The notes under the pieces: model-generated
Databases searched by the model: none
Seen by the model: the letters and a program-made list of their open reading frames with translations, nothing else
What the model was told of the DNA's origin: nothing
In this document: piece by piece, positions 538-30,671 of the stretch
Layout: each line of letters begins with the position of its first letter
How positions within the stretch are numbered: position 1 is the stretch's first letter
From: Kalaharituber pfeilii
Taxonomy: Eukaryota > Ascomycota > Pezizomycetes > Pezizales > Pezizaceae
Direction: 5' to 3'
DNA: 64,000 nucleotides
Assembly: GCA_015179045.1 (NCBI GenBank)
Contig: WHUZ01000055.1
Location: forward strand, 369,329 to 433,328
Translations under genes and position numbers: made by a program

Positions 538-1510
538 CCATTAGACAAAGCTCGGAAAAGTTGGATTTAAATGTCAGAACTTGTGCAGTTCAAAACAGCA
601 TTAGGTCCAGGCAAAGATGTGATGGAAGCAAGAGGGAGAGTTATTTTTGGGCATCATGAAAGAAGCAGACCAGTGGTGGATTTACAACGAGAAATGGGGC
701 GAGTATAAGGGTCGGTTCTGTTTATGATTTTTTTCCCCTTCATTTTTCATTTGTTTTTGCCATGCGATGATATTTTCTAGAGGTTGAAAAGTTGTCTGTT
801 TTTACTTTCTCTACCTGCCATAACTGCCTCGAATTTATGGTTAAAAGCAAAGCCGGCTGGGCTTGATAAAAAACACAAAAACAGAGAAAAGAAAAAAATG
901 CAGCATGTATAGCAAAGTATGTACAGAGAATGTGGCCCCAAAGACAAGCAATTGTGGGGAGGTCTTGTCTGTTCAAATTCGGCAACAAGTCTTGACCTCT
1001 ACGCCTAGGTGCATGATATGTCTTGTGAAGGGCAAGAAGGTGCTGGAGAGGATGGGATGGAATTCAAGCAAGGAATACCGATAGGTCAAAGTAACCTAAG
1101 CAATCGAAATTGTGTTGTGAGATATTTATGAGTCCAGGATTTCACGAGAAATTGAGAATATTGATTTAAGTGCATAACATGACTCTCTGTTGTCATAATG
1201 AGTCTTACTTGACATACTGGAATGCATTCTCTGACTCCCAACCCTCAACCATTAGCTGGTCTTGAACGACCTGACCTGCCAGCAGCTGGCAAGCCAACTT
1301 TAGCCACCTAGCCTTGGTCGCAGGCTGTTGCTGCAATGCAAAAGTTTTGAGGGCTTTTTTTTTTTTTTTTTATCACGTGACCCCGCGTGCAGCTGTTCAC
1401 CATGGCAGGGCAAAAGTTTTGAGGGCATTACATATTATCCAGCTAAATATGGGCACGCAAGGGCAAGGTTTGGCACAGAAAGCACGTGGAGATAAGGATG
1501 GCGCGTGAGG
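538..1510. repeat. Paralogous block 1 (partner at 15.37-17.31 kb)
   Basis: This stretch is diverged but collinear with 15,368-17,310. Shared landmarks are ATTAGACAAAGCTC, AAGAAGCAGACCAGTGG, GAGGATGGGATGG, GATATTTAT and the CAAAAGTTTTGAGG segment. The two copies carry different insertions, so each gives the empty site for insertions in the other. No convincing coding frame survives; short ORFs at 740-1084 look incidental. Confidence 0.75.
1355..1409 (-). mobile_element. Micro-insertion, hairpin class B, TSD 17 bp
   Basis: On the minus strand a core of 38 nt starts CCTGCCATGG and ends GGGGTCACGTGAT, followed by 17 A. It is flanked by a perfect 17-bp TSD, GCAAAAGTTTTGAGGGC (1338-1354 and 1410-1426). 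The paralogous block at about 17,190-17,215 has this target once and uninterrupted, confirming a clean insertion. It has no coding capacity. Confidence 0.9.
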
Positions 1511-1710
1511 TATTTCGTAGGTTATACAGTATATATGGTATTCTAGATGGTAGTTTACAATCAAGCATCTCTTCTTTTCCTTTCTCACCCGCAGTCTCAC
1601 ATCAGTAGTCGTTTCGTTCTGCCAGCTCTCACCGCTCCTGTCCATTGAAAGGCGGTAGTGGATACTACCTGTTATCTACAACATGACAATTTGAATGGAA
1701 GGCGGAAAAT

Positions 1711-2052
1711 TTTTTTTATTTTTTTTTAAATCATCACTCGCGTGCCGCCCTGTGGGCTATGGCGAGATTAGGTACATAATGAATAAAGGGAAAAGAGATG
1801 AGAAAGATGAGGAAGAAATATATGCCTGAGTAGCGTCGGTTACCAGCCCCTAACGTTCTATCCACCTCATGAGCTCCGCATGGGTCCCCTTCTCCTTCGC
1901 CCGTCTGCGATGGTCAGAGTAATACCTCCAGTCCGCCTGGCCACCTCCTTCCTACTCCTCACACCTTTCCCATATGTGTAACGTCGTTTCCTCCTCATCC
2001 CCGCACCACCTGCATTCTGGCCCATCCGCCTTGCCTAACCTGTGGTCCCACA
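1711..2052 (-). mobile_element. LINE-A 3' fragment
   Basis: Poly-T at the low-coordinate end is followed by the inverse terminal hairpin (GCCGCCCTGTGGGCTATGGC), the 3' UTR and the reverse-complemented CCHC knuckle. The sequence resumes at GGAAGGTGCAATGGC, which matches an uninterrupted version at about 25,720. A short GGAAGG(C/T) repeat on each side may be the TSD. Confidence 0.75.
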
Positions 2053-2621
2053 GGAAGGTGCAATGGCAAACGAGATATTTGCTTACCACTGTAAGCAAGT
2101 AGATTTACTCTACTTTAGCCCTTGATCATAACGGCCCTTGGATTAATACACGCTACATACATTTGCAAATAACTATTCTCCTATGAAATGTGGGAACCCT
2201 CTAGAAAAGGCACTGGAAGGAAGTTTTATTGGGATCGAAACGTTCCATAGGACTGGGAGTGTAGATTGCAGAAGATGGTCTGCATTGAGAGGACGAAAAT
2301 GGAGGTAAGATAGATTTTGGAGCAGAAGAGTTGTGGGAGGAGGGATAACCGTTATTGCTGGACTGAACATATACGGGCCTACATCCTTGATGTCCTGAGC
2401 CTTGCGGTTGATAGTCTAGTGCACGTGAAGAACTGGCCTTGACTTGCTTCCAAAGTAGTTCTGGATTTTATACTGTACTATACCGAATTAAACACCCTTG
2501 TCTAGAATCTACTCCAGATGATATTGCCACGCCTTACCATTGGTAAGCCCAATTCTTCGGATTTGGATTTGGAACTGAGATAGCTAATGATAGCGTGAGA
2601 GATAGGTGACCCCTCGTGTGC
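2053..2621. other. Non-coding, partly paralogous to 25.72-25.99 kb
   Basis: GCAATGGCAAACGAGATATTTGC and the following 250 bp recur diverged at 25,730-25,990. No gene is seen. Short ORFs here have no recognisable domain. Confidence 0.5.
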
Positions 2622-2680
2622 GCCCTGCCATGGCGAACAGCTGCACGCGGGGTTACGTGAAAGGAAAAAAAAAAAAAAAA
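2622..2680 (+). mobile_element. Micro-insertion, hairpin class B, TSD 13 bp
   Basis: Core GCCCTGCCATGGCG... to ...GGTTACGTGA, then AAGG and a poly-A tail. It is bracketed by a perfect TSD ACCCCTCGTGTGC (2609-2621 and 2681-2693). It is full length for the class, starting at the same base as its relatives. Confidence 0.9.
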
Positions 2681-2693
2681 ACCCCTCGTGTGC

Positions 2694-3439
2694 ACTCACA
2701 ATAGTGACAGGCCGAGTGACTAGAATGTACAGGATTGGGTGTGCATAGCCGCAGAGTGGATATGCATATTCGTAGCGCTGTTGCTGGAATGTGCAGTACT
2801 ACACTGATGTCCGGAATGTGCAGCACTGACTTTGCATAGCCGGACCTCTCTCGCAGGCCCATTGGTTAGTCAGGTAGGGGCTGGTCACTGGGAGTACGAT
2901 TCCTTCTACCGGAGATGGCTACCCTCAGGATTAGGCTACTTGGCAAGACACTGTAGGCCATGGTAGTAATAAGTGCAGGCAGATCATTCTCGAGTGCCTG
3001 GAAAGCTAAAAGTTTGGTCTAGCAGCGGACTAGCCTTGGCAGCTGGGAGGAAGCCTGAAAATTTCTGGGCAGCAGTCTCAAGCTGTAGGGGCTTGGGGAG
3101 CTCGACAGGACGGGTCTAAAGCCAGTGTCGGTCTCAGCGGTTTCAATGCTCAAAGCTTCGGGATGACCACTCACCACCATGCTACAGAATCGCTAGTCAT
3201 GAAATGTTAAACCTGTGCTTTGAGCCCTGTGGGGTGCCTAAGGGTCGAAATGCCACTGGTTACAGGTGAGGGCATGGACTGCAACTCAGTGGGTGTAGTT
3301 ATCAGCAGTTGGTTTCGAAGGGAGAGGAAGCTTAGCGAAGGGGCTTAAGGTGGAAAGGCACAAACCCATATGGCAGCCCTGTAACGGGTATATCAGGCCG
3401 TCTCAGCCTTGAAAGTTGGAAACGAGATCAAGAACTTAC
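2694..3439. other. No gene recognised
   Basis: Non-repetitive sequence with GAATGTGCAG-type short repeats near 2725-2850. ORFs are short and carry no recognisable motif. Confidence 0.4.
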
Positions 3440-3800
3440 CCTGGAAAGGAAGACTCCGCTATTGCGTGGACTGCTGGGAGGGAAAGGCCTGAGGGCCTGG
3501 AAGTTTAAAATCGACAAAGCAGATGGTCTAGAATGTCGGCGGTGCGGAAACGGAAGAGGAAACAACAGAATACATTTAGTCTAGGTGCGAGGTATGGAGG
3601 AGAAGGTGGCCAGGGGCGGGACGCAATCTGAAAACCACTAGGGGTAAAGGAGGACCAGACCAGACCCACTGTTGGAATGAAAGATGACATATTTTAGTTT
3701 TATTCTCATTTTACGTTCCTTTTATCTCTTATTTAATCTCGCCGCAGCACCCAGGGCGGTATGCAAGTAATGATTTTTTTTTTTAAATTGAAAAAAAGGG
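3440..3800 (+). mobile_element. LINE-A 3' fragment, decayed
   Basis: It contains the GGKGLRAWK motif that precedes the knuckle, a degraded CRRCG knuckle with stops, a 3' UTR and the hairpin CTCGCCGCAGC...GGGCGGTATGC ending in a T/A-rich tail. The left edge is approximate and no TSD was found. Confidence 0.65.
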
Positions 3801-4534
3801 CCCAGGTAGCCAAGGCCGCGTCACGTGATGGGGCCGTACTTTTCTAGGCCTCGGAGAGACAAACCAAAAAGCCTGTTACAGCCTGTTAGCACTACTGGAA
3901 TAGAAAATGTGGACTAACGTCACTGACCGGGATCCGGCGCATTATCGGGATCCGGCGCACTTCCGGAATTAAAACAACAGCCTCCTGTAAGGCCAAATAT
4001 TCATAGAAGATAACTAAATTACACATACAGGTTGGAGAGGTATAGGAAGGTAGCCTCTGCACCTCAGTTAGCCAATTGGAAATTTTGAATGATACTCAAT
4101 GGTGGTAGTTGCCCGATTAGGCATCTGAATCTTATGCAAGTGTAAAATAGCACGATAGCTATTTAGAACCTTGAGCATATGCATATACCTTCTGTAGTAT
4201 ATATTCAAGAAATCTAGAATGTTTCATAATAATTAGATATATATGGAACAAGTGATGAGCTAATATTTATATATATATTTTTACTGCTAGAAGCAAATTT
4301 TGATATTCAGTCTATATATAATATGAGGGATATTTAGAATACTCTAGAATATAACTCTATACATAGAAGAATATATCTTGAGTAGCTTGTAGGTATATGT
4401 CACGCCCACGCCCTACAGTCTCCGCACACTAAGCCACAATCGCCGGCAAGCCATGACCGCCGGCAAGCCATGACTGCTTCCCGCCAACAGCCGGCAAGCT
4501 CATAGAACCGGCTAGCTATAGGTAGCTAGCAAGC
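3801..4534. other. AT-rich spacer, no gene
   Basis: The middle (about 4,000-4,390) is AT-rich with many TATATA runs. 4,390-4,530 is GC-richer with CCGGCAAGC repeats. Nothing coding is recognised. Confidence 0.4.
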
Positions 4535-4625
4535 TGCCAGTATAGCCCGCCTGCCAGTATAGCCCGCCTGCCAGTATAGCCCGCTCACTAGTATAGCCCG
4601 CCTGCCAGTACAGCCCGCCTGCCAA
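4535..4625. repeat. 17-bp tandem repeat
   Basis: About five to six copies of GCCAGTATAGCCCGCCT in tandem, one with a CTCACTAGT variant. It lies just upstream of a LINE-A RNase H segment. Confidence 0.85.
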
Positions 4626-4649
4626 CTTCGAGAGAGCCATAGCCGACGC

Positions 4650-5470
4650 AGAGGACGAAGGTGGAACTCCTACTACACAGATAGGAGCAGAATCGACAAT
4701 AAGATGGGAGCTGGCATATTTAGCAATGGAGACTTATCGACTTCACTGTACCTGGGGGAACAGTGCTCAGTCAATGATGCGGAACTCATAGCGATGGGCG
4801 AAGCGTTAGCCCATCAAGAGGGAGAACTCCTGATTGTCACTGACTCCAAAATAGCAATCACTAAACTCCAGAAGATAGCCCAGGGCATACCCACATATGA
4901 GGGGACCACGAAATTGGTAAGGGACGCCTGGGAGTCCAGGACCGCATGCGGCGACATGGATGTTGTAGTGATGTGGGTGAAAAGTCACAAAGGAGTCAAG
5001 GGGAATACCGTAGCAGACATAGCAGCCAAAATCGGAGCACACCTCCCCTACAAAAGTGAAGTTGTCACGGAAGCAGGAATACGACAGCTCTCTAGGTCAC
5101 ACAGGGCCACAGAGAGAAACAGACTGGAACTAAGCTATAGGCCACTGACCAGACTTGGACGTTGGGTCTCAACTCTGGCAGGCCTACTAGGTGGAAAGGC
5201 ACTAAGAAAGTGGCAGTTCGAAATCGAGAAAGCAGACAGCCCAGAGTGCCGGTGGTGCGGGGAGGAAGAAGAGACCACCACGCACATACTCACCCGGTGT
5301 AGAGTCTGGAAACGGCGGTGGCCCGGAGGAATGACGGAACTAATAAAGCCATCAAAGAGTAAGGACAAAGAACCCCTAAGGGAATTACTGGAATGGGTCG
5401 AAGAATGAGGACATCACGAGAGAAGGGACAGTCATTTTTCTCGGGAGGACGGATTTTTCATACTCTCTAG
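4650..5470 (+). mobile_element. LINE-A RNase H plus CCHC segment
   Basis: This is the longest open LINE-A frame in the window; the ATG at 4704 gives 234 residues to 5408. The RNase H domain starts upstream of that ATG: an in-frame YYTDRS at about 4674 is the first-Asp motif with Gly changed to Arg. It continues with NDAELIAM, VTDSK and WVKSHKGVKGN..AD. The C-terminal knuckle CRWCGEEEETTTHILTRC follows, then a Trp-rich tail. RNase H removes template RNA during reverse transcription. RT and endonuclease are missing, and no hairpin or poly-A tail follows, so the copy is truncated at both ends. Confidence 0.8.
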
Positions 5471-5690
5471 CTTCTTCCACTAGTTTCCTACCACTTAATA
5501 GTCTCCTCCATCATTTTCCTATGCATCTTGCCCACCTGGCCACCTCCTTCTCCATACCTTGCATCTCCATAAATATTCTATTGTCTCCTCCTCTGTCCTA
5601 CACCAGTGACATTCTAGGCTGTCCTTCTGGCAAATTTTATGTATCCATGCTCTTAAGCCTTTTCCCCCCATCACACCTCGCAAGGTATAT

Positions 5691-6510: not shown

Positions 6511-6875
6511 TTAAAAGAAAAAACTTGGGCTCGCTGTGCTTTGGCTGACATCTTGATCCCCGCCCCTGTGACTATATCATCCTGGCGTGGGAGGAAAGTG
6601 CCCACTCTCGCTGCCTTGTCTGCCTCCTCATTACCTTCGATCCACTTGTGTCCTTTCACCTACATCGCCGCTACGTCTAGTCCCCCCGCTCTGTTCTTCC
6701 CTCCCAGGTCTTCCTACATGGTGCACTTGCTCCGTCGGGTGTTGGCTTTCCCTCTACAATATTGTACAGCCTGTTCATTCGCTATCTGTGAGTCTGTTAT
6801 GATCAACAATTCTTTGTTCCCTTCCTCAAGGGCCTTGGTTGTGTTCGGGACCAGCCATCTTATCCGGGCCACTCA

Positions 6876-7374: not shown

Positions 7375-7384
7375 GGTTGCCAAT

Positions 7385-7467
7385 AGGGCGGCATTCTCGC
7401 CATAGCCTTACAGGCGGCATGCGAGTATTGACTCGCCGTAGCCTGATAGGCGGTATGCGAGTAATGG

Positions 7468-7501
<34 letters not shown>

Positions 7502-7539
7502 CGAGTATTGATATATAGAAAAAAAAAAGAAAAAAAAAA
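7385..7539 (+). mobile_element. Micro-insertion, hairpin class A, itself interrupted
   Basis: Outer insertion with TSD GGTTGCCAAT (7375-7384 and 7540-7549). After removing the inner insertion its core is about 54 nt: AGGGCGGCATT, the hairpin CTCGCCATAGCC...GGCATGCGAG, then TATTGATATATAG and an A-rich tail. It has no coding content. Confidence 0.85.
7432..7499 (+). mobile_element. Micro-insertion, hairpin class A, nested
   Basis: A 36-nt core starts exactly at CTCGCCGTAGCC and ends GCGAGTAATGG, followed by 32 A. A perfect 12-bp TSD, TGCGAGTATTGA (7420-7431 and 7500-7511), lies within the outer micro-insertion. The hairpin pairs CTCGC/GCGAG and GCCT/AGGC. Confidence 0.92.
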
Positions 7540-7549
7540 GGTTGCCAAT

Positions 7550-7860: not shown

Positions 7861-7875
7861 CTCAAGTATGCAGGG

Positions 7876-8318: not shown

Positions 8319-8321
8319 TTT

Positions 8322-10303: not shown

Positions 10304-10458
10304 GCTATGAGTAGCATAACCATGAGATAAAGTCATACCTCTGCGCAATGTTGCGAATGCTAGTGTAGGATTATCAAGTACGATTACAAGCTCTGCTTGT
10401 GATGACATATTGGTAAACCTACCGACGACGGGGAAATCCTCTTGGAGAGATACGTGAA

Positions 10459-10460
<2 letters not shown>

Positions 10461-10492
<32 letters not shown>

Positions 10493-10530
10493 CACGTAAC
10501 CCCACTTGCAGCTGTTCGGTATGGCAGGGC
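10461..10530 (-). mobile_element. Micro-insertion, hairpin class B, TSD 11 bp
   Basis: Minus-strand core starts GCCCTGCCATACCGAAC, ends GGTTACGTGA and is followed by about 30 A. TSD AT(A/G)CGTGAAGC at 10,450-10,460 and 10,531-10,541, one mismatch. Confidence 0.85.
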
Positions 10531-10747
10531 ATGCGTGAAGCTGAAAGTGACACCGTAGCTTGATCAACTGCAAGCTGCAGCAGGTCCGTATAACAGAAGC
10601 TAAGGAAGCATATCACAAGAGTTCTGCATGGACGGATGGACAGAGATGTAGATAGGCGTGCATATGCAGTGGCGCAGTGGTATGACAATCAAGAGATATG
10701 TAACATAGGGTCCGAGCGTTAACGTAACACAATGTCGCACAAAGGCT

Positions 10748-10813
10748 TTTTTTTTTTTTTTTTTTTTTTTTTTGTCACGTAACCCCGCGTGCAGCTGTTC
10801 GCCATGGCAGGGC
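10748..10813 (-). mobile_element. Micro-insertion, hairpin class B, TSD 13 bp
   Basis: Minus-strand core GCCCTGCCATGGCGAAC... to ...GGTTACGTGAC, then about 26 A. Perfect TSD TCGCACAAAGGCT (10,735-10,747 and 10,814-10,826). Confidence 0.9.
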
Positions 10814-10826
10814 TCGCACAAAGGCT

Positions 10827-11700: not shown

Positions 11701-11939
11701 CACACCAAAAGCACTGAGTGATACTGCCGTCGGTGAAGTATCCTGCCTACTTGGAAACTGCCTGTGGCCATGGCTAGTCCGCACGTAGCAATGACAAATT
11801 AGGTGGCTTTCAAGAGAGGATTTGGGTCATTTCATATATTTCTCTGACATCTGTCCTGTCATAGTCTACTCTACTTGTTATACTCATGCTCGTCATTTGA
11901 AAACAGTTCGCCCATAAACTATATAGGTAACATATACCA

Positions 11940-13625
11940 TTGAAGATATCGAATTCGCCAGCGGCATCGAATTCGCGAGCGGTGTCGAATTCGCCGGCAG
12001 TGCCGAATTCACCAGTAGTGTCGAATTCGCTGGCGGCGTCGAATTTACAGGCGGCATCAATTTCCCTGACAACATTGGACCTACCAGTGAACTCGGGCCT
12101 GCAGAGCCTGACAGACGAATGGACCTCCAATGTAAAAAAGCTGACTGAGAGGCTATGCAAGGCACTTGCAGGCACCTCGAGCCGTTCAGCTCCAGGGCCT
12201 GATGGCATCAGCTATAGATTCATCAAGCTGGTCAATAAAACAGTGCTAGGAGGGCAGTTAATGAAGGAGCTGGCTGCTGAGCTGGCTGCAGCCAGGATGC
12301 CGAAGGATTGGCAATTCAGCAAGGTGATCATGATCCCGAAGACTGGCAGGGATCTTACGCAAGCAAAGAGCTGGAGGCCTATTCAACTCATCAATTGTGT
12401 GGGAAAACTGATGGAGAAGGTGGTTGCTGATGACTTGCAAGAAGCTGGACTATTCCACCATGGGCAGTTTGGAGGAGTGAGAGGAAGGTCTGCAATTGAT
12501 GCCTTATTTCGGGCAGTTGTGAAGAGCCAGAGAGCCCTGGCACGTGGCGGTGGGGCAGTGTGGATTATGGAGGATGTCAAGGGAGGCTTTGGGAACACAC
12601 GTTGGGATATGGTCAAGCACCGAGTACAGGGTTCTAAAGCTGAGAAATGGTTGCCCTGGTTAGAAACCTTCTTCCGGGAGCGAGAGTTTGAGGTGGAATG
12701 GGATGGACAGGTGAGGGGCAATGGCAGATCGAACGTAGGTGTGCCGCAGGGCTCGCCTTTATCCCCAGTTGTGTTCCTCATATACATGGCACCAATTCTA
12801 GAAGAGATGGAAACAAAGGTAGCTACAACAGTGAGAGACTGTGAAGTGGAGCTGCCCTCATTTGTAGATGATATGAACTGTGTCATTCTGGATTGGGAAG
12901 GAGGAAAGGATATGAGGAGAATTGGGGAGAGAATTGCAGGAGTAGTCAGGGAGGTTGCTGAAGCTCACGATCTACCACTGGAGACCTCAAAGGAGGAGGT
13001 CCTAGTCATGGGTAAGAAGGCCAAGAGAAGGGCAGATGTTGAGAGGTGCAAGTGGCTAGGGGTGATTTGCGATAGCACTCTTGATTTCGACCTCCACTGG
13101 AAAAGCCGGATCGATAAAGCCAGGAAACTCATGGGCGCGCTGTCTGGGCTAGGCAACTCTCAATGGGGTATGAGTCCTATCTCATGGAGAAAGGCTTATA
13201 CAGGCATGGTAAGGGCAGTAGCCCTTTGGGGGTCCGAAATTGGGTGGAGAGGCCAGAAGCAGTGGAGAGAGGAATTTGAGAGGTTGCAGTATCAAGCACT
13301 CCGCAAATGCACTGGTGCAGTTCAAGGGGCAGCGAGAGTAAAGGTCGAGGCCATTGCAGGAGTAGAGAGTGTAACGACGATCCTCGATCAAGGCCAAGCA
13401 AGGTATGCACTGAGATCAGTGAGGGACCCTACAGGAGTGGGGGACCTGTGGCCTGAAAGCTTCAGTGGAATGGTAGCCTCAGACCCAGACAGAGAGGGGG
13501 AGAGGGGGAGGGACTGGAGAGACTTCAGCTTGGGTTATGCTACAGACAAAAAGGATGGATTTGAGTCAGTAGCTGGAAAGATTGCAAGCACTCTCGAGGT
13601 CGACGAGGAGGAGAGAGTGTCCTAG
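11940..13625 (+). CDS. LINE-B reverse transcriptase frame
   Basis: A 561-codon frame encodes a non-LTR reverse transcriptase. The repeat-rich start is followed by APGPDGISYRFIK, IPKTGRDLTQAKSWRPIQL (fingers), EDVKGGFGNT (motif A, Asp kept), GVPQGSPLSPVVFLIY and SFVDDMN (the YxDD box with Phe for Tyr and both Asp kept). A thumb and linker follow. The enzyme copies element RNA at a nicked target. The ATG lies partly in the TSD, so it is not the native start; the native ORF2 would begin further 5' with an endonuclease that is absent. The frame ends at TAG (13,623). The RNase H domain continues in the same frame, so this one stop breaks an otherwise continuous polyprotein. Confidence 0.85.
   Translation: MKISNSPAASNSRAVSNSPAVPNSPVVSNSLAASNLQAASISLTTLDLPVNSGLQSLTDEWTSNVKKLTERLCKALAGTSSRSAPGPDGISYRFIKLVNKTVLGGQLMKELAAELAAARMPKDWQFSKVIMIPKTGRDLTQAKSWRPIQLINCVGKLMEKVVADDLQEAGLFHHGQFGGVRGRSAIDALFRAVVKSQRALARGGGAVWIMEDVKGGFGNTRWDMVKHRVQGSKAEKWLPWLETFFREREFEVEWDGQVRGNGRSNVGVPQGSPLSPVVFLIYMAPILEEMETKVATTVRDCEVELPSFVDDMNCVILDWEGGKDMRRIGERIAGVVREVAEAHDLPLETSKEEVLVMGKKAKRRADVERCKWLGVICDSTLDFDLHWKSRIDKARKLMGALSGLGNSQWGMSPISWRKAYTGMVRAVALWGSEIGWRGQKQWREEFERLQYQALRKCTGAVQGAARVKVEAIAGVESVTTILDQGQARYALRSVRDPTGVGDLWPESFSGMVASDPDREGERGRDWRDFSLGYATDKKDGFESVAGKIASTLEVDEEERVS
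11947..12057 (+). repeat. 18-bp tandem repeat at the LINE-B 5' side
   Basis: About six diverged copies of an 18-bp unit (TCGAATTCGCCGGCGGYR). It reads in frame as a Ser/Asn/Ala-rich repeat (NSPAxS) ahead of the RT domain. Confidence 0.85.
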
Positions 13626-14546
13626 GGACGAGATGTACACCTACTGCAGGCAGACATTGAGGTCATTGACCTCAAGCTGTGCAAGGAAGACACCCCAGTC
13701 AAATGGGAAAAGGCCATCAATGAGGCTAAGAGTGACTCGGTAGCTATTTTCACAGATGGCAGCCGCAGTGAGGAAGGCGGTGTTGGTGGCGGATGGTGCT
13801 GGAGGCAGGTGGTAGCAGGTGAGTCAGAAGGGTCCCGGTGGGTAGGGACAAAAGCAACTGTGTGGGACGGCGAGGTCTCAGGAATGAAGAGTGCCCTTGA
13901 AGCAGTTGATGGCAGTGAAAAAGTGCTACTACTCGCAGACTCTCAGGCAGCTATCAGTGCAGTCCAGAAAGCAGGAAAAACTGGCAAGGCAAGAACCGCA
14001 GACCTAGCGCGGGTGATAGAGCTGATTGCAGAGAGGCGGCGGAGGCTAAGGAAGGCGGATGCAGTGAAGCTGGCATGGGTCAAGGCCCACGTGGGGATAG
14101 AAGGCAATGAGAAGGCGGATGAGTTGGCCAAAGAGGGGGCCAAGTGCATGAGGTATGATGGGCAGGCCACTGAGGGTGGGCTGCGTCAAGAGTTAGTTCG
14201 AAAAAGAAAAGAGGAGAGGGAGCGTGCAGGGTTTGGGAAGGGCAAATTCGTGAAGTGGGGCAGGAGAGCACTCACCAATTACACATGGCTGCGGACTGGA
14301 AAAGGCGGAGCTATGTGGAGAAGGATGGTTAGTGGCGAGGAGGTACAATGTACATGTGGTGAGGCATGGAGTGCTGAGCATGTGGTGTTCAGATGCACAG
14401 AACTGGAGCGGCCCCAGAGGAAGAACAAAAATGGGGCACATGTCACCTGGCAGTCCTGGAAGGACCTAGAGGAGAAAGGATGGAAGCAAGAAGGCGTGGA
14501 AGGTGACCCGGTCGAGTACTGGTTTGCCTGCCTCGATCTGGGGTAG
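13626..14546 (+). pseudogene. LINE-B RNase H domain, separated by one stop
   Basis: In frame with the RT after the TAG. The domain starts before the first ATG (13,809): IFTDGSRSEEGGVGGG carries the first Asp, followed by WDGEVSGMKSALEA (Glu), LLLADSQAAI (Asp) and WVKAHVGIEGNEKADELAKEG (final Asp). All four catalytic acidic positions look present. A C-terminal CTCGEAWSAEHVVFRC knuckle (CCHC type) follows. Ends at 14,546. It would remove RNA from the RNA:DNA hybrid. A second LINE-B copy at 24.6-25.7 kb also has a stop at nearly the same place. Confidence 0.8.
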
Positions 14547-14811
14547 CCGGGGGACGGAGGGCACTGGGTGCTCAAGGGTGTATGTAGATTCCGTAGTTAG
14601 TTGTCTCAAACCTGGCCCGGGTATATGGGTTGTTGAGCTTTGGGTAGAAAGAGATGATTGTTATTCCTTCGTAGAGAGAGTAGCCAAAGTAATACACCTA
14701 TATACATAGAGCATGAGGTTGCTCTCGGGCCCTTACCACCCTTTATCACGGACCTCTCTGATATCCGACACCTCCGACACTCCGACATTACTGTAGATCT
14801 CTAACATGGGT

Positions 14812-14853
14812 CCCTGCCATAGGCTGGTAGCCTGTATGCGGGGTTACGTGAAT
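14812..14853 (+). promoter_or_regulatory. LINE-B 3'-terminal RNA hairpin
   Basis: CCCTGC (14,812-14,817) can pair with GCGGGG (14,838-14,843). Inside it AGGCT (14,821-14,825) pairs with AGCCT (14,829-14,833). GTTACGTGAATT and poly-A follow. Stem-loops in this position are the known template-recognition signal of several LINE RTs; that role here is inference. Confidence 0.7.
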
Positions 14854-14911
14854 TAAAAAAAAAAAAAAAAAAAAAAATACCATTGAAGAGCATGAATAGT
14901 TATCCACTATT

Positions 14912-15483: not shown

Positions 15484-15942
15484 TGTGATGACGGCTAGAC
15501 AGCATCCACTGTTTCGCACGGGTACCGGTATCTAGAGCTGGCGGAACGAAGCCTCAAGGGCGGCTTCAACAATCAAATGTCAAGAAAAGGGTCTTCAATT
15601 GTCTTGTCTGTACGTGTCCATATCTGTCCATGTCTGTATATCTCCGTGTATGTCTGTATGTCCCTCCACACAGTCCTATGTACATACAATGCCATGCCTT
15701 GGCGAACAGCTGCATGCGGGGTCACGTGGAAAAAAAAAAAAAAAAAATGTACATACAATTTATAGACCACCTTCGCCTTTCCAACTGAGCCTATACATAC
15801 ATATCTCGCTTCTTAATCATAATTTTCTTCCTCATCCCATGCATGTGTCATCATGTGGCCCTACCGCTGAGTACCGCTCCGGCCCGCGGCCCGCGTATGG
15901 CCTTATTCTTTCCATCGGTACCGTGGTTACCACCACACAGGG
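15484..15942. mobile_element. GGTACC-ended non-autonomous element, copy 1
   Basis: Absent from paralogous block 1 between GGAAGCA and GGGAAAGT/GGGAGAGT. An inverted copy lies at about 26,595-26,945. Ends contain CACGGGTACCGGTATCTAG and CATCGGTACCGTGGTTACC, an imperfect inverted repeat. It contains a class B micro-insertion. No transposase. Confidence 0.6.
15691..15746 (+). mobile_element. Micro-insertion, hairpin class B, TSD 13 bp
   Basis: Core GCCATGCCTTGGCGAAC... to ...GGGTCACGTGG, then about 17 A. Perfect TSD ATGTACATACAAT (15,678-15,690 and 15,747-15,759). The diverged copy of the host element at 26.6-26.9 kb, whose matching part reads near 26,760, lacks the insertion. Confidence 0.92.
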
Positions 15943-16186: not shown

Positions 16187-16210
16187 AGAGAAAAGAAATC
16201 GAGCTTCATG

Positions 16211-16271
16211 TTTTTGTTTTTTTTTCTTAAACATTATTACTCGCATGCTGCCCTGTAGGCTACGGCGAGAT
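16211..16271 (-). mobile_element. Micro-insertion, hairpin class A
   Basis: Minus-strand core TCTCGCCGTAGCC...GCATGCGAGTAATAATG, then a T-interrupted A tail. An 8-bp TSD GCT(T/G)CATG (16,203-16,210 and 16,272-16,279) brackets it. Block 1 has an uninterrupted ATGCAGCATG at 898-907. Confidence 0.75.
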
Positions 16272-16645
16272 GCTGCATGTTCCGCAACGTATTTCTCAAC
16301 AGGGAATGTTGCCCCAGAGAGACAAGCAAATTGCGGGGAGCTCTTATCTGTTCATGATATTTCGTTTTTGCAACAAGTCCTGACCTCTACATCCAGGTGT
16401 ATGGCATATTTTGTGAAGCGCAAGAAGGTACTGAAGAGGATGGGATGGGATTCAAGCAAGGGACGCTGATAGGGCAAAGTAACCTAAGTAATTGAAATTG
16501 TGTTGTGAGATATTTATAAGTTCAGGATTTCTTCGAGATGAAAATATTGATTCAAGGACATAACATGACTGTCTGTTATCATAATGAGTCGTACTTGACT
16601 TACTACATTCTTTAACTCCCAAACCCCAACTGTTAGCCGACCCCG

Positions 16646-17119
16646 TACAGACCACTCGAATACCTGGGGACAAGAAGGAGGGTGGCCACACTCGCAGGCA
16701 TCATGGGGGACAAAGGATTGAGACAATGGAGACACCAGATAGGGAAGGAGGATTCACCGGAGTGCAGGTGGTGTGGAAAGGCCCTCAAGAATTACAGACA
16801 TATATCGAGAGAGTGCGAGGCGTGGAAGAAGAGACTACCGGGAGGAGAGACGGGGCTGAAGATGCCAATAGGAGTGGAGAAAGGGAAGGGGAAGGAAGAG
16901 GGGAGAAGAAGGGGATGAAAGAGGGGGAGAGGAAGGGGATGACACTGGCCGAGGTGCTGGACTGGGCAGCGAGTTAGCTGATTTCTATCCGACTATTATT
17001 TTTCCTTTACACTCTTTCCTTATCTATCATCTGCGATTTACACATTCTGTACCTAACACCTCGCCGTAGCCTGATAGGCGGTATGCGAGTAATGGAAAAA
17101 AAAAAAAAAAAAAAAAAAA
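16646..17119 (+). mobile_element. LINE-A, 5'-truncated, TSD and empty site
   Basis: Encodes RRVATLAGIMGDKGLRQW and the knuckle CRWCGKALKNYRHISREC, then a 3' UTR, the hairpin CTCGCCGTAGCC...GGTATGCGAG and poly-A. Perfect 12-bp TSD TAGCCGACCCCG (16,634-16,645 and 17,120-17,131). Block 1 at about 1,253 shows the uninterrupted site (TTAGCTGGTCTTGAAC). Confidence 0.9.
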
Positions 17120-18297: not shown

Positions 18298-18609
18298 TGC
18301 AGTATCAGTTAATGTGGGTTGGGAAGTAAATATCAAGTCGTGTTTTAGGTTTCCAGCACAATCTCATCAATGTCCTGTAGAAGGCAACTTCGAAGACCCA
18401 GACGGCCTACATATTAGGATCCTACGCATGTAGGAGGAGAGTCCCAGGGGCAGGACTTGTATCAGATTTGGGGCAGTGCTGGGATTGTTTGGGTTGGCTT
18501 TTCCCCGTATGGTATAAGATGTCAGTAGAGCATTTGAATTCATCTCAAAGATACTCAAAGGACTTCTGATAGATTCGAGTACGATTGAGCAACGGCCCCA
18601 AAGCTCATG

Positions 18610-18671
18610 ATCTTTTTTTTTCCGCTCTTCTATCACGTAACCCTGCTTGCAGCTGTTCGCTATGGCAGGGT
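18610..18671 (-). mobile_element. Micro-insertion, hairpin class B, TSD 10 bp
   Basis: Minus-strand core ACCCTGCCATAGCGAAC... to ...CAGGGTTACGTGA, then TAGAAGAGCGG, an A-run and GATC. TSD AAAGCTCATG (18,600-18,609 and 18,672-18,681). The stem here is CCCTGC/GCAGGG, a fully Watson-Crick version of the usual pairing. The intact HNH paralogue (about 28,755) shows the target once. Confidence 0.85.
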
Positions 18672-19554
18672 AAAGCTCATGCTAATTAGAAGCCAACGTA
18701 CGGAGGTTTTCTTGCCGCGATTAACACGTGTTCAGGAGAAGTTTGCAGGATTTGAGGGCAGGTAAGTAGTGATACACTTGACCACATCTTCACTGATGAA
18801 TATCTGAAGCAGCCAGATCAGATTGGGATGTGCATCAGCAGTGGGCCTAGCAGAGGATAGGAAATGTGAGCTATACAACGTGTCAGCGGTGGTAGCCATG
18901 CAAACAGGCATAGTGATCTCAGACCTTTGCCTACATTTGTGAATATGTGTTAGCTCCTGCTTCACTTACAATACCCGCACAACATGCACACATAATGAGG
19001 AAGTGAAGGAGAGCTGTCTGACCAACCTCGATACTTGTGCTGATCTGTATATGAGTATGGAAGACGATCCCTCGCCATTACCATGCACAGAGTTGGCACT
19101 TGAGCTAGATAGCATTGGATGGAGGCAACGAGCAGTCCCTAGGCGAAGGTATAAGGACTATAGTCCATCAAAGTAGATCGGAAGGAGTGGAGAGTACAGT
19201 CATGGATGCCCAGTGATGTAATAGCTACATACATGTTGGCCGAGGCTCTCCAGGTCGGTTAGGAGGTCTTCAAGGGTGGTAGAGTTCAGCATGTAGTTAC
19301 ACAGAGCAAGGAACTCGTGGGATATCAAAGCCAATGTATGTTGGAGTGGGTCAGTAATCTGCTGGCGTGTATCCACAGATAGTAGATTAGGGACGGTATG
19401 CGAGAGGTCGAGTAATGGAGAATAGTTTAGTACCCAATATTGTCCTACGCGAAAGCCTTCAAGATATGTGCTGGTATTGCGAGAAGGTGATGTCTATCTT
19501 AGCTATCATAGATAATAGTAACTTACATCCACGCCACCGACAATAACCTCCACA

Positions 19555-20192: not shown

Positions 20193-21120
20193 ATGAGCTC
20201 CTATAGAGGCTCAAAGGGTGGCCACCGAGGAAATCGGTTCGTACCGGCTCCACAGCCACCAGCACCTTTTTTTTTTTTTTTTTTTTTTTAATTTCACGTG
20301 ACCCCGCTTGTAGCTGTTCGCCATGGCAGGGCAGCCACCAGCACCTACAACCCCGCCAACGCTACTACCAGACCAATTAATACCGCCGCATGCTCACCTA
20401 CCACTAAACTTCAACTCCTCAGCCAAGGAATGGGAGCCCAAAAAGACATCTCCATCTTTTGTTTTAGATGTGATGCACAATCTTCTGAATGAGATAGTGA
20501 AGGCAGATAGGGTAGTAGATTTTGAGGGAGAATATGGTCTGGCAAGGATGCAGCTTAGGAATATCCAGCTCTTCACTAAAATCATTTGCAACAACTACTA
20601 TAGAGAGGAAGAACTGGACTCTACCAAAACCAAAAAGTCCACTCCACCTATGCGTAATATAGATACGCAAACAGAGCGACCCTCATATGCAGAAGCGGCC
20701 ACCCAAACCTCCACGGTGTGTAATGTGGATCCACGAACAGAGTGACTGTCATATGTAGAAACAGCTGCTTAAACTTCTACAACTCCCCTGAAGATTAGGC
20801 CAGCCTCTCCCACCCCATCCAGCGTTAAGAAGAGAGACCCACCTGCCCTTGCTAAAGAAAAGGCCATCACCTCCAGGGCCATATCTACCATAAAAAGCAA
20901 TCTCCTTTTACCAAAAAAGCCAGAACTATGACCTGCCACTTCAGCAATAGTAGTTCATGGGATAGCAGTGACCAAGAGACTAGGGAATGTTTGGAAGTGG
21001 TTAGAGATGGATAATGAACTAGGCAGAAAAATCACTGGGGCTCGATGGCTGTTGAAGAAAGAGAGGAGGGAGGGAAAGGTGACTAGTTCTGTTGCTGTTT
21101 ACCTGGGGAGAGCAGGTTAG
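20193..21120 (+). pseudogene. LINE ORF1 (gag-like), with a micro-insertion and stops
   Basis: The frame starts MSSYRGSKGGHRGNRF at 20,193. With the 79 bases of TSD plus insertion at 20,253-20,331 set aside, it stays open to a TGA at 20,743. Past that, and past a few other stops, recognisable ORF1 sequence continues: the TQTERPSYAEAATQT motif typical of LINE gag proteins, then VVHGIAVTKRLGNVWKWL and GRKITGARWLLKK, the RRM-like segment. Homology is lost by about 21,120, before any CCHC knuckles. ORF1 proteins bind element RNA. 19,990-20,192 is a plausible 5' UTR. Confidence 0.65.
20268..20331 (-). mobile_element. Micro-insertion, hairpin class B, TSD 15 bp, inside ORF1
   Basis: Minus-strand core CCCTGCCATGGCGAAC... 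to ...GGGTCACGTGAAATT, then about 27 A. Perfect TSD CAGCCACCAGCACCT (20,253-20,267 and 20,332-20,346). It breaks a LINE ORF1 whose frame is continuous without it. Confidence 0.92.
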
Positions 21121-21439: not shown

Positions 21440-21482
21440 TCCTGCCGCAGGGTTACGTGATCAAAAAAAAAAAAAAAAATAT
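21440..21482 (+). mobile_element. Class B-like 3' tail with poly-A
   Basis: GGTCCTGCCGCAGGGTTACG, then TGATC and about 17 A. The hairpin is reduced to CCTGC/GCAGG with almost no loop. No convincing TSD, so it may be the tail of an older truncated element. Confidence 0.5.
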
Positions 21483-21485
21483 ATC

Positions 21486-24348: not shown

Positions 24349-24639
24349 TTGTTGAGTAAAGGTAAAAGGTAAGGCGTTAAGGTAAAAGGTTAAAGGTTCA
24401 GCGTTGTAATGTTACGGTGTCTGCGATTGCAGCGAAATGTAGGTGTAACTTAGGACAACGCTTGGAACTTGACCTTTGTATAGAGGCCGTGCAGGCCTCT
24501 ATATATAGGCGTCCAGCGTGTCCGTTATTTGCATTATTCTATTTAACATTGAGTGCTAACTAACAAGGCATCATTGATAACTATGAAAGGCATCATTACC
24601 ATGCGTCATCTCGCATCACCATAGCATCATTGATACTTT

Positions 24640-25684: not shown

Positions 25685-26594
25685 GAGGATACTACCTGTC
25701 ATCTACAACGTGACAACTTGAACGGAAGGTGCAATGGCAAACGAGATATTTGCTCACCAATGTAAGTAGATTCACTCTGTTTCAGCCCTGAGTCATAACC
25801 GCCCCCGGATTATTGCGCCCTACATATATCTATTTGCAGATCACGATTCTCCTATGAACTGTGAGAGACCCCTTATGTAAGGCACTGGAAAGAGGTTTTA
25901 TTGGGCACATATACGATGCAATACAATATTCCACAGGACTGGGATTGGAGATAGCAGAAAATGCCATGCATTGAGAGGATGAAACATGGCGGTGAAAGAA
26001 ATTTTGAAGCAGGAAAGAATTGCCTATAAAATACAGGTTGGGGAATATGATGCCAGGAAATGGGGATATCTAAGCCCTGTTCCCGTTTTTCAGTGATTAA
26101 ACAGAGATTTCAAGCTCCGGTGAAAACCCCTGGTCTACTAGAAGGGACTTTTGTCCTGTTATTTCACTGATCATTATCATTCTTTCAATATGAAGTAATT
26201 TGAAGGCTCGTATTTTCGAGATTAAATCAGGGTATTTGATCTTCCAATAAAACCACTGGTTTTGGATATCTATATAATATTAATTTGAGGATATTTCTGT
26301 AGGTCTTTGAGGGAATATAATAGATAGCTCCCATAGGTTATATCCTTGAATAGCAAGAGACAACTATGTATGTGATTACTACAAGCTGCAGATGCTTGTT
26401 ATTATTTGTATTGCCTTATATTTAGCTCTTTCCTAATATGTACTATACAGAAGATATCTCGACTTTAAAACTGTATGCAGTACTTGGACCTCTTTTGCCA
26501 AGGCTAGTGATAGTCGTCCTTGCTATCTCGAGATTCCTTCTATAAATTTTTTTTCTATCAACGGAATTAAGCTTTTCATGAGATTTCTCACGTT
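25685..26594. other. Paralogue of 1.65-2.36 kb, then AT-rich
   Basis: GATACTACCTGTCATCTAC and the following 300 bp match 1,655-2,360 with the LINE-A there absent. From about 26,100 the sequence is AT-rich and non-coding. Confidence 0.5.
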
Positions 26595-26945
26595 GCGGTG
26601 GTAACCACGGTACCAATGGAAAGAATAAGGCTAAACGCGGGCCGGAACGCCGCTCATTGGTAGAAGTATATGATGATGCGTATATATGCTAAGAAAGCCA
26701 GCTCATATCTAAGAAGCGAGATGTGGATGTATAGGTTTGGTTGGAAGGTGAAGGTGGTCTATAAATTGATGTAGATATGACTGGATGAGCACAAGAGCAA
26801 GACATGGATACGCAGGCATAGATCAGACAGACCAGACATGTATAGACAAGCGAATTGACTACTCTTCTTTTATAATCCTTTCCTTAACATTTGTGAGACC
26901 GCTCTTGAGACTTCGTTCCGCCAGCGCTAGATACTGGTACCCTGT
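26595..26945. mobile_element. GGTACC-ended non-autonomous element, copy 2
   Basis: Inverted relative to 15,484-15,942: begins GGTGGTAACCACGGTACC and ends GCTAGATACTGGTACCCTGT. It lacks the micro-insertion of copy 1 and is more diverged internally. No ORF of note. Confidence 0.6.
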
Positions 26946-26972
26946 GCAAGATAGTAGATGCTATTGAGCCTT

Positions 26973-27796
26973 TATTACAAATAGTCTACTAGGTTTTACT
27001 ACATCTTAACGTATACTACAAATCGATATACTTTTCCACAAAAACTAGCTATGCAGAAGAGTATATACTTCGACTACTAGAGTAGAATTTTATAAGTTCT
27101 TTATGTTTAGAACCTCTGCATACTTAAAGAAAGCATTCTTAAGAAATTATAGTATAGTAAATTTTATAATAATATATTAGTATCTATTTGTATAGAAATC
27201 TCTAAGTTATATAATATTCTAGTAGACTAAATATATTATTCTTCTTTAATACTATTATATTAATAGCTATAGTCTTATAATTAAAGAAACTTCTTCAATT
27301 GTATATTACTTTACTTAATTTTATTTAATTTATTTTAATATATTGTATAGTTAGTATATATTTAAGTACTTTTCTAATACTATTTTTATACAATATTTTG
27401 AACTCAATAATTACTTTAAAATTTATATTAATACTATTCATATATATTTTTATTGAAATAGATTATTCAAATAAAGTATTTAAATATTTTTATTGTATTA
27501 ATTGTAGATGCAGAGAGTAGATTTCTATATCTGCAATTTTTACAGCAAGATATATGCTAAGATTTATGCAGAAACTTACAGATATATAATTCGTAACTAC
27601 TTTTTCTTAAAAGTAGAGATGTAGAATCTGAAAAATGATGCTTGCTTTAAGCCTTCTAAAAGGTGCATAGAAAAGTAGGTTCTGTGCATGAGGATATACA
27701 GACTCTCAATCGCTCAGTTTTGGTGGAAACGTGCGTCGAATTGTGGTGTGTGGTGTGCGTCGAGATGTGGTGAAACACAGTAGTAGTCTCTTAGTG
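26973..27796. mobile_element. 0.83-kb long-TIR element, AT-mutated copy
   Basis: Collinear with 34,101-34,946. The left end CTACTAGGTTTTACTACATC and right end GATGTGGTGAAACACAGTAG are a decayed inverted repeat of about 60 bp. Against the other copy nearly all differences are C to T or G to A in this one, so it is very AT-rich. Non-coding. Confidence 0.75.
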
Positions 27797-27966
27797 CATT
27801 GCATAGAAAAACTGTATGAACACCATGCGCTAGGAGGCATCATCAGACCTCCATGCATCTCACTACCTTTGTCTCATGCGCAATCATTGTCACGCTCCTA
27901 GTAGTGCCATCTTTATAGGTATCGCCCAACCATCTAGTCATATATACAGTATAGCAATAGCCACAA

Positions 27967-29542
27967 TCATACATGAGGAGACATGGTGTTAGCCCGGCGA
28001 AGATGAGGGCGAGGGTAGGCGGGATTGTGTGTACAACTGTCAGGAGAGAAGAGGTGCACCTCCTGCGGAGGCAGCGTGCAGTTCGTTGGGAGTGATGGGG
28101 GCCGTTGAGGGGTACACTGAGCTCTATCATCGGCCTCCATGGCCTGCGCAGACTGGGCGCACGCGGCAGGAGGGAGAAACTCAGCTATGCTTTCCGGAAG
28201 CGAGGCAAGGTATCGCACTGTGATCCACGAGCGGTCCTCCGGTGCTTGTTGGTGCAGTTGACAAGTAGTATATACAGGGTTTGTTTTGGTGTCATCCATC
28301 TGCTTGGGGGTTCCCAGCACTCCATCTATGTAGTCTAGTGGTTCGCCTTGGCTGCTATACTCCCATTCGTCCTCTTCTGGAGATGCCGCAGCAGCGCACC
28401 GTACCAACCGCGCCAGAGCGGCGTGCAGAATCAATAAATGTGGGTGGGGAAGTGGATATCGAGTCGCATCCTCGGTTTCCAGTACAATCTCATCACCATC
28501 CTGTAGGAGGCGGCCCCGAGATGCGTCGAACACCCAGGCGGACTGTATGTCAGGATCCTGCGCATGTGAGAGCGGAGTTCCAGGGTCCAGGACCTGTGTT
28601 AGATCTGGGACCGCGCCGGGAGCGGTTGGATTGGCAACATTTTTGGAGAGACAGGAAAAACGTACGGTATAGCGTGTCAGTAGGGCATTTGGATTCGTCT
28701 CAAAGATACTCAAGGGGTCTCCAATGGGTTCGAGCACGATTAAGCAACGGTCCCAAAGCATATGCTCGCTAGGAGCTAAGGTGAGGAGGTTTTCTAGGCG
28801 ATTAATACGCGTTCGGACGGAGTTTTCAGGACTTGAAAGCAGGTAAGCAGTGATACGCTCGGCTACACCTTCACCGACGAACATCTGAAGCAGCCGCATC
28901 AGATTGGGGCGTGCATTGCCAGTAGGTCCAGCCGAGTAAGGGAAAATGTGAGCTGCATGGAGTCCCAGCTGGCGGTGGGTAAGCAAACAAGCATTGTGGT
29001 CTCGAACCTTTGCCTGCATTTGGGAATGAGTGTTAGTTTCTGCTTCACCAGAACATCCTCACAACACCAGCACGTGATGAGGAAGAGGACGAGAGTTTGC
29101 TAACCAATCTCGATGCCTGTGACGACCTGTGTGCGAGCATATAGGGCGATTTCTCGCCACTACTGTGTGTAGAGTTAGCACTTGAGCTAGATGGTGTTGG
29201 GTGGCCGCCTCGAGCAATCCCTAGGTGGAGGGGCAAGGACCGCAGTCAGTCAAACGAAATAGGTGGGAAGAAGTGGATGGGAAGGAGTGGAAAGAGAGTA
29301 CAGTCACGGATACCCAGTGTTGCAACCGCTGCATGTTGGCCGAGGTTTTCGAGGTCGGTTAGGAGAAGGTCTTCAAGGGCGGTGGGGTTCAGCACGCAGT
29401 TACACAGAGCGAGGAACTCGCGGGGCACCAGAGCCTTCGTTTGTCGGAGATGGTCGGTAATCCGCTGGCGTGCGTTCAAAGATAGCGGAGCGGGGACAGT
29501 ACGCAGCGGGTCGAGTAGCGGAGGATAGTTAGTGGCTGACAT
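27967..29542 (-). CDS. HNH_2-type nuclease-domain protein, 3 exons
   Basis: I model exons 29,542-29,314, 29,220-29,105 and 29,013-27,967. The GT-AG introns (93 and 91 nt) have TGACTGAC and ACTAAC branch-like sites. The join is in frame end to end: 463 residues. The centre matches the fungal HNH_2 pattern: RDHNACLLT then HAAHIFPYS (His137), and RLENLLTLAPSEHMLWDRC (Asn190, His199). Upstream is a helical, Leu-rich segment; the C-terminus is acidic and of unknown role. HNH_2 proteins form expanded families in fungi and their substrates are mostly unknown. A decayed paralogue lies at 18-19.5 kb. The gene is isolated among transposons yet its frame is intact. The start at MSATNYPPLL is chosen over an in-frame ATG 79 codons upstream because the paralogue does not preserve the longer extension. 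Confidence 0.7.
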
Positions 29543-29779
29543 TGCCGCTTTTGCTGAAGCCTTCAGATGTGCAGTGCTGGTGTTGCAATGAGTCGATAGT
29601 TTTGTAGGTGATAATACATGTAACTTACTTGTTGCACTTGGCTTGGCACATGCCAAGTCTTGTACTAAACCATGCCAAGCTAAATCTAACACTATTGAAT
29701 ATAATGGATTGTGTGAACACGGAACCAACCTCGTGACCCAAAATGGGCTTTTTTTTTCTTTTCGTACTAAGAACTTCAT

Positions 29780-30109
29780 AAATATATGGAGTACCTGTCA
29801 CAGGATCGCTTTTTAGAACACCACGTGGCCAGGAGACTTATTACTAAAGGTACTACAGTATCTAGACAACAGTGTATGCCACCCCCGCACTATATAATAA
29901 TAGGAAAAGTGCATATACGCTGCATTAACCTCTGTATATGCAACAGGAACAGGTTGCCTTTGCATTTTCAACAGTAATTCATATAATACTGGGCAAGTAT
30001 ACAATCCAAATTTAGTATATACGGTGCTCTGATAAATGCTTGAGATAGTTCAATTGAGTTACCATTCTCACACTTCTTGAATCTAATAATTGATCTTAAG
30101 ATCGCTAAC
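29780..30109. other. AT-rich upstream of the HNH gene, no gene
   Basis: Nothing coding recognised. A CTTGGCACATGCCAAG motif (29,645-29,660) recurs at about 22,430. Confidence 0.35.
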
Positions 30110-30174
30110 TTTGCCCTGCCATGGCGAACAGCTGGAAGCGGGGTTACGTGATTTTTAAAAATAAAAAATAAAAA
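30110..30174 (+). mobile_element. Micro-insertion, hairpin class B, TSD 10 bp
   Basis: Core TTTGCCCTGCCATGGCGAAC... to ...GGTTACGTGA, then a T/A-mixed tail. TSD GAT(C/A)GCTAAC (30,100-30,109 and 30,175-30,184). Confidence 0.82.
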
Positions 30175-30671
30175 GATAGCTAACAGCGAGCTTGTAACTT
30201 CACTCTCAGCGCATTCACTATCCTGCTACAGCAGCTCAAGGTTATCATATACTTTATGCTGTTGGTAAGAGAAGTTTGTTACATCTCAGCATCCATGAGC
30301 CGTATGGTAAAACGGTTTGGAGCATCTTGTTCAGCGCATTGAATAGACCTAAATGAAAATTCAAACAGTTATAAACCGAGGTTCAAACCTCGCCCAAAAA
30401 AGACTAACCCTCTATATGTGTGGGAGTTAGACCCAGGCTCTTAGAAAGTGCTCTTTTTCGTAGCACTACTTGAACATGCAGTTTGAACCCCAGTTCGCAC
30501 AAATGCAATTTCATCTGATATATTTTACAACTATACTTAAATTGTGCAACTAGAAATGAAGTGTAGGTTTAGAATTTATTGAAAAGAAAAGAAAAAAAAG
30601 GAAAAAAAAAAAAGGTTGCTGGAATTGAGTAGCGTAAGTTTTTAAATCGCTTTGCCGCCCGGGCATGTTCA
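30175..30671. other. No gene recognised
   Basis: Contains a B-box-like GAGGTTCAAACCTCG near 30,380 but no complete tRNA fold. Otherwise non-coding. Confidence 0.35.

Follow-up and report, generated by a model that had tools for sequence, protein, structure and literature searches.

Retroposon copies made of a tail hairpin in Kalaharituber pfeilii, and the possible origin of their common start

How can an insertion of about 40 nucleotides (nt) be copied as a unit, and what places its 5' end repeatedly at the same base? This question is raised by a 64,000-nt stretch of the genome of the desert truffle Kalaharituber pfeilii (Pezizales; assembly GCA_015179045.1, contig WHUZ01000055.1, positions 369,329 to 433,328), hereafter the window, in which eight insertions consist of a hairpin and an A-rich tail. 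The original prediction had offered two answers, a defined tiny RNA or release of the reverse transcriptase just after the hairpin. Here we describe the population to which these insertions belong, termed class B, together with the longer elements that end in the same hairpin. With about even confidence, we read the hairpin-only copies as inserted by a long interspersed nuclear element (LINE) from a 3' hairpin RNA whose 5' end would have been fixed before reverse transcription.

Anatomy, abundance and start points of the hairpin-only copies

At all eight places a core of about 39 nt, an A-rich tail and a target-site duplication (TSD) of 10-20 bp were found, which bears out the predicted insertions. 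On the plus strand are the copies at 2622 (2609..2693, body 2622-2680, 13-bp TSDs 2609-2621 and 2681-2693), 15691 (15678..15759, body 15691-15746, 13-bp TSDs) and 30110 (30098..30184, body 30110-30172, 12-bp TSDs with one mismatch). On the minus strand are those at 1355 (1338..1429, body 1358-1409, TSDs 1338-1357 and 1410-1429 with one mismatch), 10461 (10450..10541, body 10461-10530, 11-bp TSDs with one mismatch), 10748 (10735..10826, body 10748-10813, 13-bp TSDs), 18610 (18600..18681, body 18610-18671, 10-bp TSDs) and 20268 (20253..20346, body 20268-20331, 15-bp TSDs, CTACAAG haplotype). Scoring of the flanks gave TSD lengths of 10, 11, 12, 13, 13, 13, 15 and 20 bp where 10-17 bp had been proposed; the 20-bp repeat contains an exact one of 17, and three of the eight carry one mismatch. 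The tails, described as poly-A, are A-rich in every copy but not all pure: TAGAAGAGCGG precedes the A's at 18610, AAGG occurs at 2622, and the tail at 30110 is a T/A mixture. The 12-mer GCCCTGCCATGG is present exactly in five copies and is replaced by ACCCTGCCATAG at 18610, GCCCTGCCATAC at 10461 and GCCATGCCTTGG at 15691. The proposed 3' end, GG(T/G)(T/C)ACGTGA, is better given as GT(T/C)ACGTGA, which fits seven copies, and as GTCACGTGG in the copy at 15691. The bodies begin between 3 bases 5' and 2 bases 3' of the G that opens the core (A at 18610), in line with the predicted common start within one to three bases; the first core bases double as TSD bases at 1355 (GC) and 20268 (G).

The 78.03-Mb assembly (360 contigs) was searched for the same patterns, and the resulting counts are lower bounds. 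GCCCTGCCATGG has at least 2,065 exact matches, against 2 for the reversed control, and the class-B 3' anchor GAACAGCTGCAMGCGGGGTYACGTGA at least 547, against 0. Thirteen distinct GCCCTGCCATGG sites were inspected, eight at loci picked by the pattern (loci fetched from the genome carry L numbers) and five in the window. Twelve were a hairpin followed by an A-rich tail, 11 of the 13 had a TSD score of at least 9, and one (L004) was a broken core. No exact GCCCTGCCATGG occurred in the 134,788 bases of L009-L022, which had been chosen by place and in which about 3.6 would occur at the genome-wide frequency. In 198,788 bases taken irrespective of sequence, comprising these and the window, a profile search detected four clear class-B-like hairpin-only copies beyond the window, as well as three 77-nt variants. 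This search suggests, as a rough figure, some 2,000 hairpin-only copies per genome.

For the start points, class-B sites were fetched by the 3' anchor in genome order, some via a shorter anchor, and joined by the three window copies that match it. Because sampling was by the 3' end alone, selection ignored the start position; loci picked by GCCCTGCCATGG (L001-L008) or by AGGG upstream (L123-L142), and those from L163 onward, were excluded. The 68 sites comprised 42 hairpin-only copies, 25 long copies and one of the 77-nt type introduced below. A TSD score of at least 9 at a distance of up to 6 bases from the hairpin base was obtained for 33 of the 42 hairpin-only copies, for none of 840 pairings of flanks swapped between copies and for none of the 25 long copies. 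These TSDs are 11 to 20 bp long, and their offsets from the hairpin base were -4, -3 and -2 (one each), -1 (four), 0 (16), +1 (four), +2 (five) and +5 (one), where a positive value means that the first core bases belong to the TSD as well. Together with the genome counts, these figures therefore exclude chance. The TSDs and A-rich tails show that the hairpin-only copies were inserted in the manner of a LINE.

Of the 44 sampled copies that end within about 240 nt, 42 start at the hairpin base (p = 7e-51 for uniform truncation over the last 239 nt), and 24 of the 25 long copies match another long copy for at least 195 nt upstream of the anchor (134 nt in L061). The variable truncation points typical of 5'-truncated LINE copies were not found among the sampled class-B copies. 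The two outcomes that would have spoken against the original prediction, a lack of any peak at the hairpin base or TSDs at chance level, thus did not occur in this 3'-anchored sample. Random truncation of the long class-B element is ruled out by the bimodal starts and by the haplotypes described below.

Longer elements with the same or a similar tail

Beyond the earlier reading, the hairpin proved to be the tail of longer elements, one of these shares the haplotypes of the short copies, and other hairpin tails give hairpin-only copies as well. When long class-B copies were read further, elements of about 650 nt (L163) and about 1,460 nt (L164) were obtained, both with TSDs. In neither did the open reading frame (ORF) nearest the tail match Pfam, and no reverse transcriptase was found on the element strand of either. 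A protein search with the L164 frame returned 16 proteins, every one from K. pfeilii; our impression is that this frame resembles LINE ORF1. Near the long copy L163, at 2896-5496 on the minus strand of that locus, ORFs with ankyrin repeats and NPHP3_N-like sequence were seen. In the window, 20944-21092 on the plus strand is 68.6% identical over 153 nt to long class-B sequence; the tail downstream of it is a different one, which contains GGGTTACGTGA and, at 21450, a run of A's.

A reverse transcriptase is encoded by a LINE copy in the window (11934..14889, plus strand, 2,908-nt body), which has reverse transcriptase and RNase H domains, an A tail and TSDs at 11934-11946 and 14877-14889 (ATACCATTGAAGA). 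Its 3' end (14811-14851) is a related hairpin, here termed class A. The sequence GCGGGGTTACGTGA is common to the tail of this LINE and the hairpin-only core, whereas the full hairpin is common to the core and the long class-B elements. The LINE is a candidate relative of the one that would mobilise the short copies, and the shared tail suggests that these would be mobilised in trans by a LINE protein. Like short interspersed nuclear elements (SINEs), the hairpin-only copies are short, non-coding, dispersed and flanked by TSDs, and they share their 3' end with a LINE. The RNA polymerase III (Pol III) head of a SINE (tRNA, 7SL or 5S) was not found: the window gave zero Rfam matches at gathering thresholds, and the element is hairpin throughout.

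At twenty loci picked for AGGG 5' of the hairpin, a second start was recognised, (A)AGCCTGCCTCCGGGC, which precedes the hairpin by about 38 nt. The TSD score at this start was at least 9 in ten of them (L126 and L138 having common flanks); five were shorter pieces (L129, L130, L131, L134 and L136) and five had no clear TSD there. This 77-nt form is a tail-only SINE. A genome search for its 5' portion that tolerated three mismatches yielded at least 296 matches, against 0 for the control. The 77-nt SINE and the long class-B tail are both predicted to fold as three hairpins, and their last 77 nt or so are homologous. The flanks of the 77-nt copies L126, L128, L138 and L139, which lie at four places, are nearly identical, and these copies may thus be parts of larger duplicated segments. 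Further 77-nt-like variants (L018, L011 and L009) have the inner hairpins CCATGGCCA(A/C)GTGCTACAAG or CCATGGCTTCGTGCTGCAAG, with ACCC in place of GCCC and likewise (A)AGCCTGTCTCCGGGC in front.

A second hairpin tail, family 2 (CTCGCC...GCGAGTAATG, at least 62 exact anchors), was studied at 40 fetched sites and two window sites. After removal of four repeated loci, 38 distinct sites remained: 14 hairpin-only, one truncated (L112/L119, ending 37 nt upstream of the stem base) and 23 long, of which L117 and L177 were classed by eye. Fourteen of the 15 near-end truncations thus lie at the hairpin peak, and the 14 starts fall in a 5-base stretch (p = 1e-15 for uniform truncation over 70 nt). Where the TSD score was at least 9, the extra bases before the stem were the LINE's own in five of five copies (AC, AC, AC, C and C in L165, L173, L176, L178 and L184), as expected from a 5'-shortened LINE RNA. 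For family 2, an explanation by stalling at an upstream hairpin was discarded, since no structure is predicted in the 35 nt that precede the family-2 hairpin (0 kcal/mol); in class B, which has predicted hairpins upstream, such stalling may still play a part. Class A (at least 159 exact anchors) was inspected at 23 sites: 20 were long, two were hairpin-only at the base (L156 and L161) and one (L024) started inside the hairpin. With two of three short copies, class A weakly backs the peak at the hairpin base.

The hairpins of class A and family 2 align without gaps. Of the cells of this alignment 88.7% are paired, where shuffles give 82.1%, and it contains 13 two-sided changes, where shuffles average 4.9; none of 500 shuffles reached either figure, and slid versions of the alignment were 26 to 59% paired. 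A conserved 3' stem-loop with compensatory changes, as in LINE tails of the stringent type, was accordingly seen for class A with family 2 and not for class A with class B. This covariation, together with the published stringent LINEs as described in PMC4176376, suggests that the hairpin is a recognition handle.

Family 2 is also represented in the window by a hairpin-only copy (CTCGCC...GCGAGTAATGG followed by A's; 7432..7499, plus strand), which lies directly 3' of an older copy of the same family, and by the 3' hairpin and A tail (17060..17119, plus strand) of a longer copy with a 450-nt body and the TSD TAGCCGACCCCG. The former belongs to a nested insertion at 7384-7540, where TGCGAGTATTGA recurs past the A tail of the inner copy and the outer repeat AAAGGTTGCCAAT flanks the pair. 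Another hairpin, of the CTCGCCGTAGCC type, lies at about 16195-16285 on the minus strand; its TSD is partial by eye, and its start possibly coincides with the stem base.

What sets the 5' end

The sequence variants of the class-B hairpin-only copies are those of the 77-nt SINE and not those of the long class-B element. A CAC variant occurs in 19 of 42 hairpin-only copies and in none of 25 long ones (p = 3e-5); within the AT haplotype the first base is G in 12 of 15 hairpin-only copies and in two of 25 long ones (p = 6e-6). The 77-nt SINE carries the G, CAC and CTACAAG variants, as do the hairpin-only copies. A non-templated or cap-copied first G was dropped as an explanation because the 77-nt SINE has G there.

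With AGGG upstream as the sign of the 77-nt form, 67 of 509 exact G-start CTACAAG copies carry it (69 rows, two of them with A), so that hairpin-only and 77-nt copies stand at about 442:67; for CTGCACG it is carried by 16 of 141, or about 125:16. The two shares are alike (p = 0.67). CTGCAAG with AGGGG has 26 matches, which include some long elements and one hairpin-only copy (L045). For the long class-B element, the ratio of hairpin-only AT rows not beginning with G to long AT rows without G is 3:23. The contrast between about 567:83 for the haplotypes of the 77-nt type and 3:23 for the long element (p = 6e-17) amounts to an odds difference of about 50-fold between homologous tails. This is the main ground on which the template, and not the enzyme, is thought to set the end; with the start bases of family 2, it suggests that the 5' end is set before reverse transcription.

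The mechanism that we propose would begin with an RNA made of a LINE-type 3' tail hairpin of about 39 nt and poly(A), with nothing else. Its 5' end would sit at the 5' base of the hairpin ahead of reverse transcription, and insertion would proceed by target-primed reverse transcription of a LINE. For the LINE-derived copies this end would probably arise through trimming of LINE RNA from its 5' side as far as the hairpin, which the LINE protein may hold; a 5'-3' nuclease halted by the structure of the hairpin or by a protein holding it would fit, but is a guess. For the large class-B population, the hairpin RNA would probably be an exact 3' product of the three-hairpin RNA of the 77-nt tail-only SINE, which would itself derive from the end of a longer element.

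Several results weigh against this proposal. In class B, additional bases separate the TSD from the core in seven copies (C, C, T, T, AT, CTG and GGCT); unlike in family 2, in none of the seven are they the bases of the 77-nt or long element, which are expected to be G-rich. In family 2, L170 (TSD score 8) has an extra TAC that matches the LINE in AC only, and the class-A copy L024 begins within its hairpin. The case for a conserved fold is also uneven. For class A with family 2, neither the pairs with a two-sided change (4 vs 2.7) nor the pair types (12 vs 12.7) exceed shuffles, and class A with class B, at 84% paired cells, does no better than shuffles and shows zero two-sided changes. Single-sequence folds of the class-B core hardly beat shuffles (z -0.4 and -0.9), and the class-A tail with 34 nt of upstream sequence is predicted to adopt a different fold. 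Finally, the two haplotype ratios rest on slightly different patterns, those for CTACAAG differing by two 3' bases, and on AGGG as a marker of length.

The failure of the seven extra class-B strings to match the 77-nt RNA leaves real weight to another explanation, namely that the class-B hairpin is a SINE of its own, with a 39-nt RNA that starts at G and is transcribed from a single gene or a small number of genes, the ancestors of all its copies. Such a gene would agree with the fixed start (TSD-supported offsets of 0 in 16 of 33 copies, 0 to +2 in 25 and -1 to +2 in 29), with extra bases that never come from a longer template, and with the CAC and G-first variants that separate the hairpin-only copies from the long ones. 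These variant differences are, however, absent against the 77-nt SINE, and the like ratios in two haplotypes would require one gene apiece. The variable, LINE-matched starts of family-2 hairpin-only copies also speak against it, and we know of no internal Pol III promoter that would fit into a 39-nt unit. On balance we regard transcription from such genes as rather unlikely.

Release of the reverse transcriptase, the second answer of the original prediction, would mean that the enzyme lets go after copying a protein-held hairpin, so that synthesis of the complementary DNA would stop at the hairpin base on short and long RNAs alike. The stop point does recur in more than one hairpin family; 3' stem-loops of this type are described as bound by stringent LINE proteins (PMC4176376), and a fungal LINE reverse transcriptase is described as switching templates preferentially at sites near predicted hairpins (PMC2104539). 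Release should, however, track the hairpin, yet the homologous tails differ about 50-fold in their odds. Of the two predicted answers the small RNA is thus the better supported, and release appears clearly improbable. Chance repeats, an assembly artefact or a DNA transposon such as a miniature inverted-repeat transposable element hardly deserve credence. Some loci are indeed duplicated with common flanks (L111, L114 and L171; L166 and L175; L112 and L119), and each set was counted once. The flanks of the copies otherwise differ, the tails are A-rich, none of the 840 control pairings scored, and the TSDs vary from 11 to 20 bp where such a transposon would have a fixed length. Our preferred reading remains a hairpin RNA whose 5' end would be set before reverse transcription.

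Elsewhere in the window, NLR-like fungal genes are indicated by ORFs with HeLo and NB-ARC domains at 42933-44432 and 54867-56366, the second of which is followed by a TPR-rich ORF (56777-58417).

Significance and comparison with known systems

The hairpin-only copies seem to be among the smallest copy-and-paste elements and to mark a lower size limit for a retroposon. They offer a natural experiment on the RNA needs of a LINE protein, in that many insertions consist of the recognition hairpin and an A tail alone. Through their common start, the question of how very short LINE and SINE copies acquire their 5' end becomes testable at one base, and the unequal hairpin-only shares of homologous RNAs provide a handle on template supply versus reverse transcriptase release. 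A more far-reaching claim, that a self-sustaining 39-nt SINE consists of a LINE tail hairpin alone and has been amplified from a defined tiny RNA to about two thousand copies or more, is put forward only tentatively. If true, it would mean that a 3' hairpin and poly(A) suffice for LINE insertion in nature, and the family would be the smallest retroposon family known to us. SINEs that share a LINE tail are already known; a tail-only retroposon of 39 nt was not found among the papers listed in a literature search of open PubMed Central (PMC) papers.

Tail-sharing pairs include the L2-type SINE/LINE pairs of eel and zebrafish and the monocot SINEs with L1. As described in PMC4176376 and PMC3747384, tail-sharing SINEs resemble the copies studied here in their 3' hairpin common with longer elements, their TSDs and their inferred LINE-dependent insertion, and the monocot SINE/L1 pair also has compensatory stem changes and an A tail. 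The Kalaharituber copies differ in having neither head nor body, so that the tail hairpin is the entire element. They have the same 3' end and TSD as 5'-truncated LINE copies, and in family 2 and class A the hairpin-only copies represent ends of the LINE type; their starts, however, mostly coincide at a single structural position, and class B carries variants other than those of its long element. Trypanosomatid SIDER/RIME and rodent ID elements are also short non-autonomous retroposons, but have bodies of about 75 nt or longer. A fungal parallel in kind of machinery is given by the MGL/Mg-SINE chimeras of Magnaporthe, for which PMC2104539 describes LINE machinery, short direct repeats (14 bp in one case) and preferred template positions near predicted hairpins. 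Those chimeras, as described there, fuse several RNAs with MGL pieces of at least 230 nt, whereas each Kalaharituber copy is a single hairpin.

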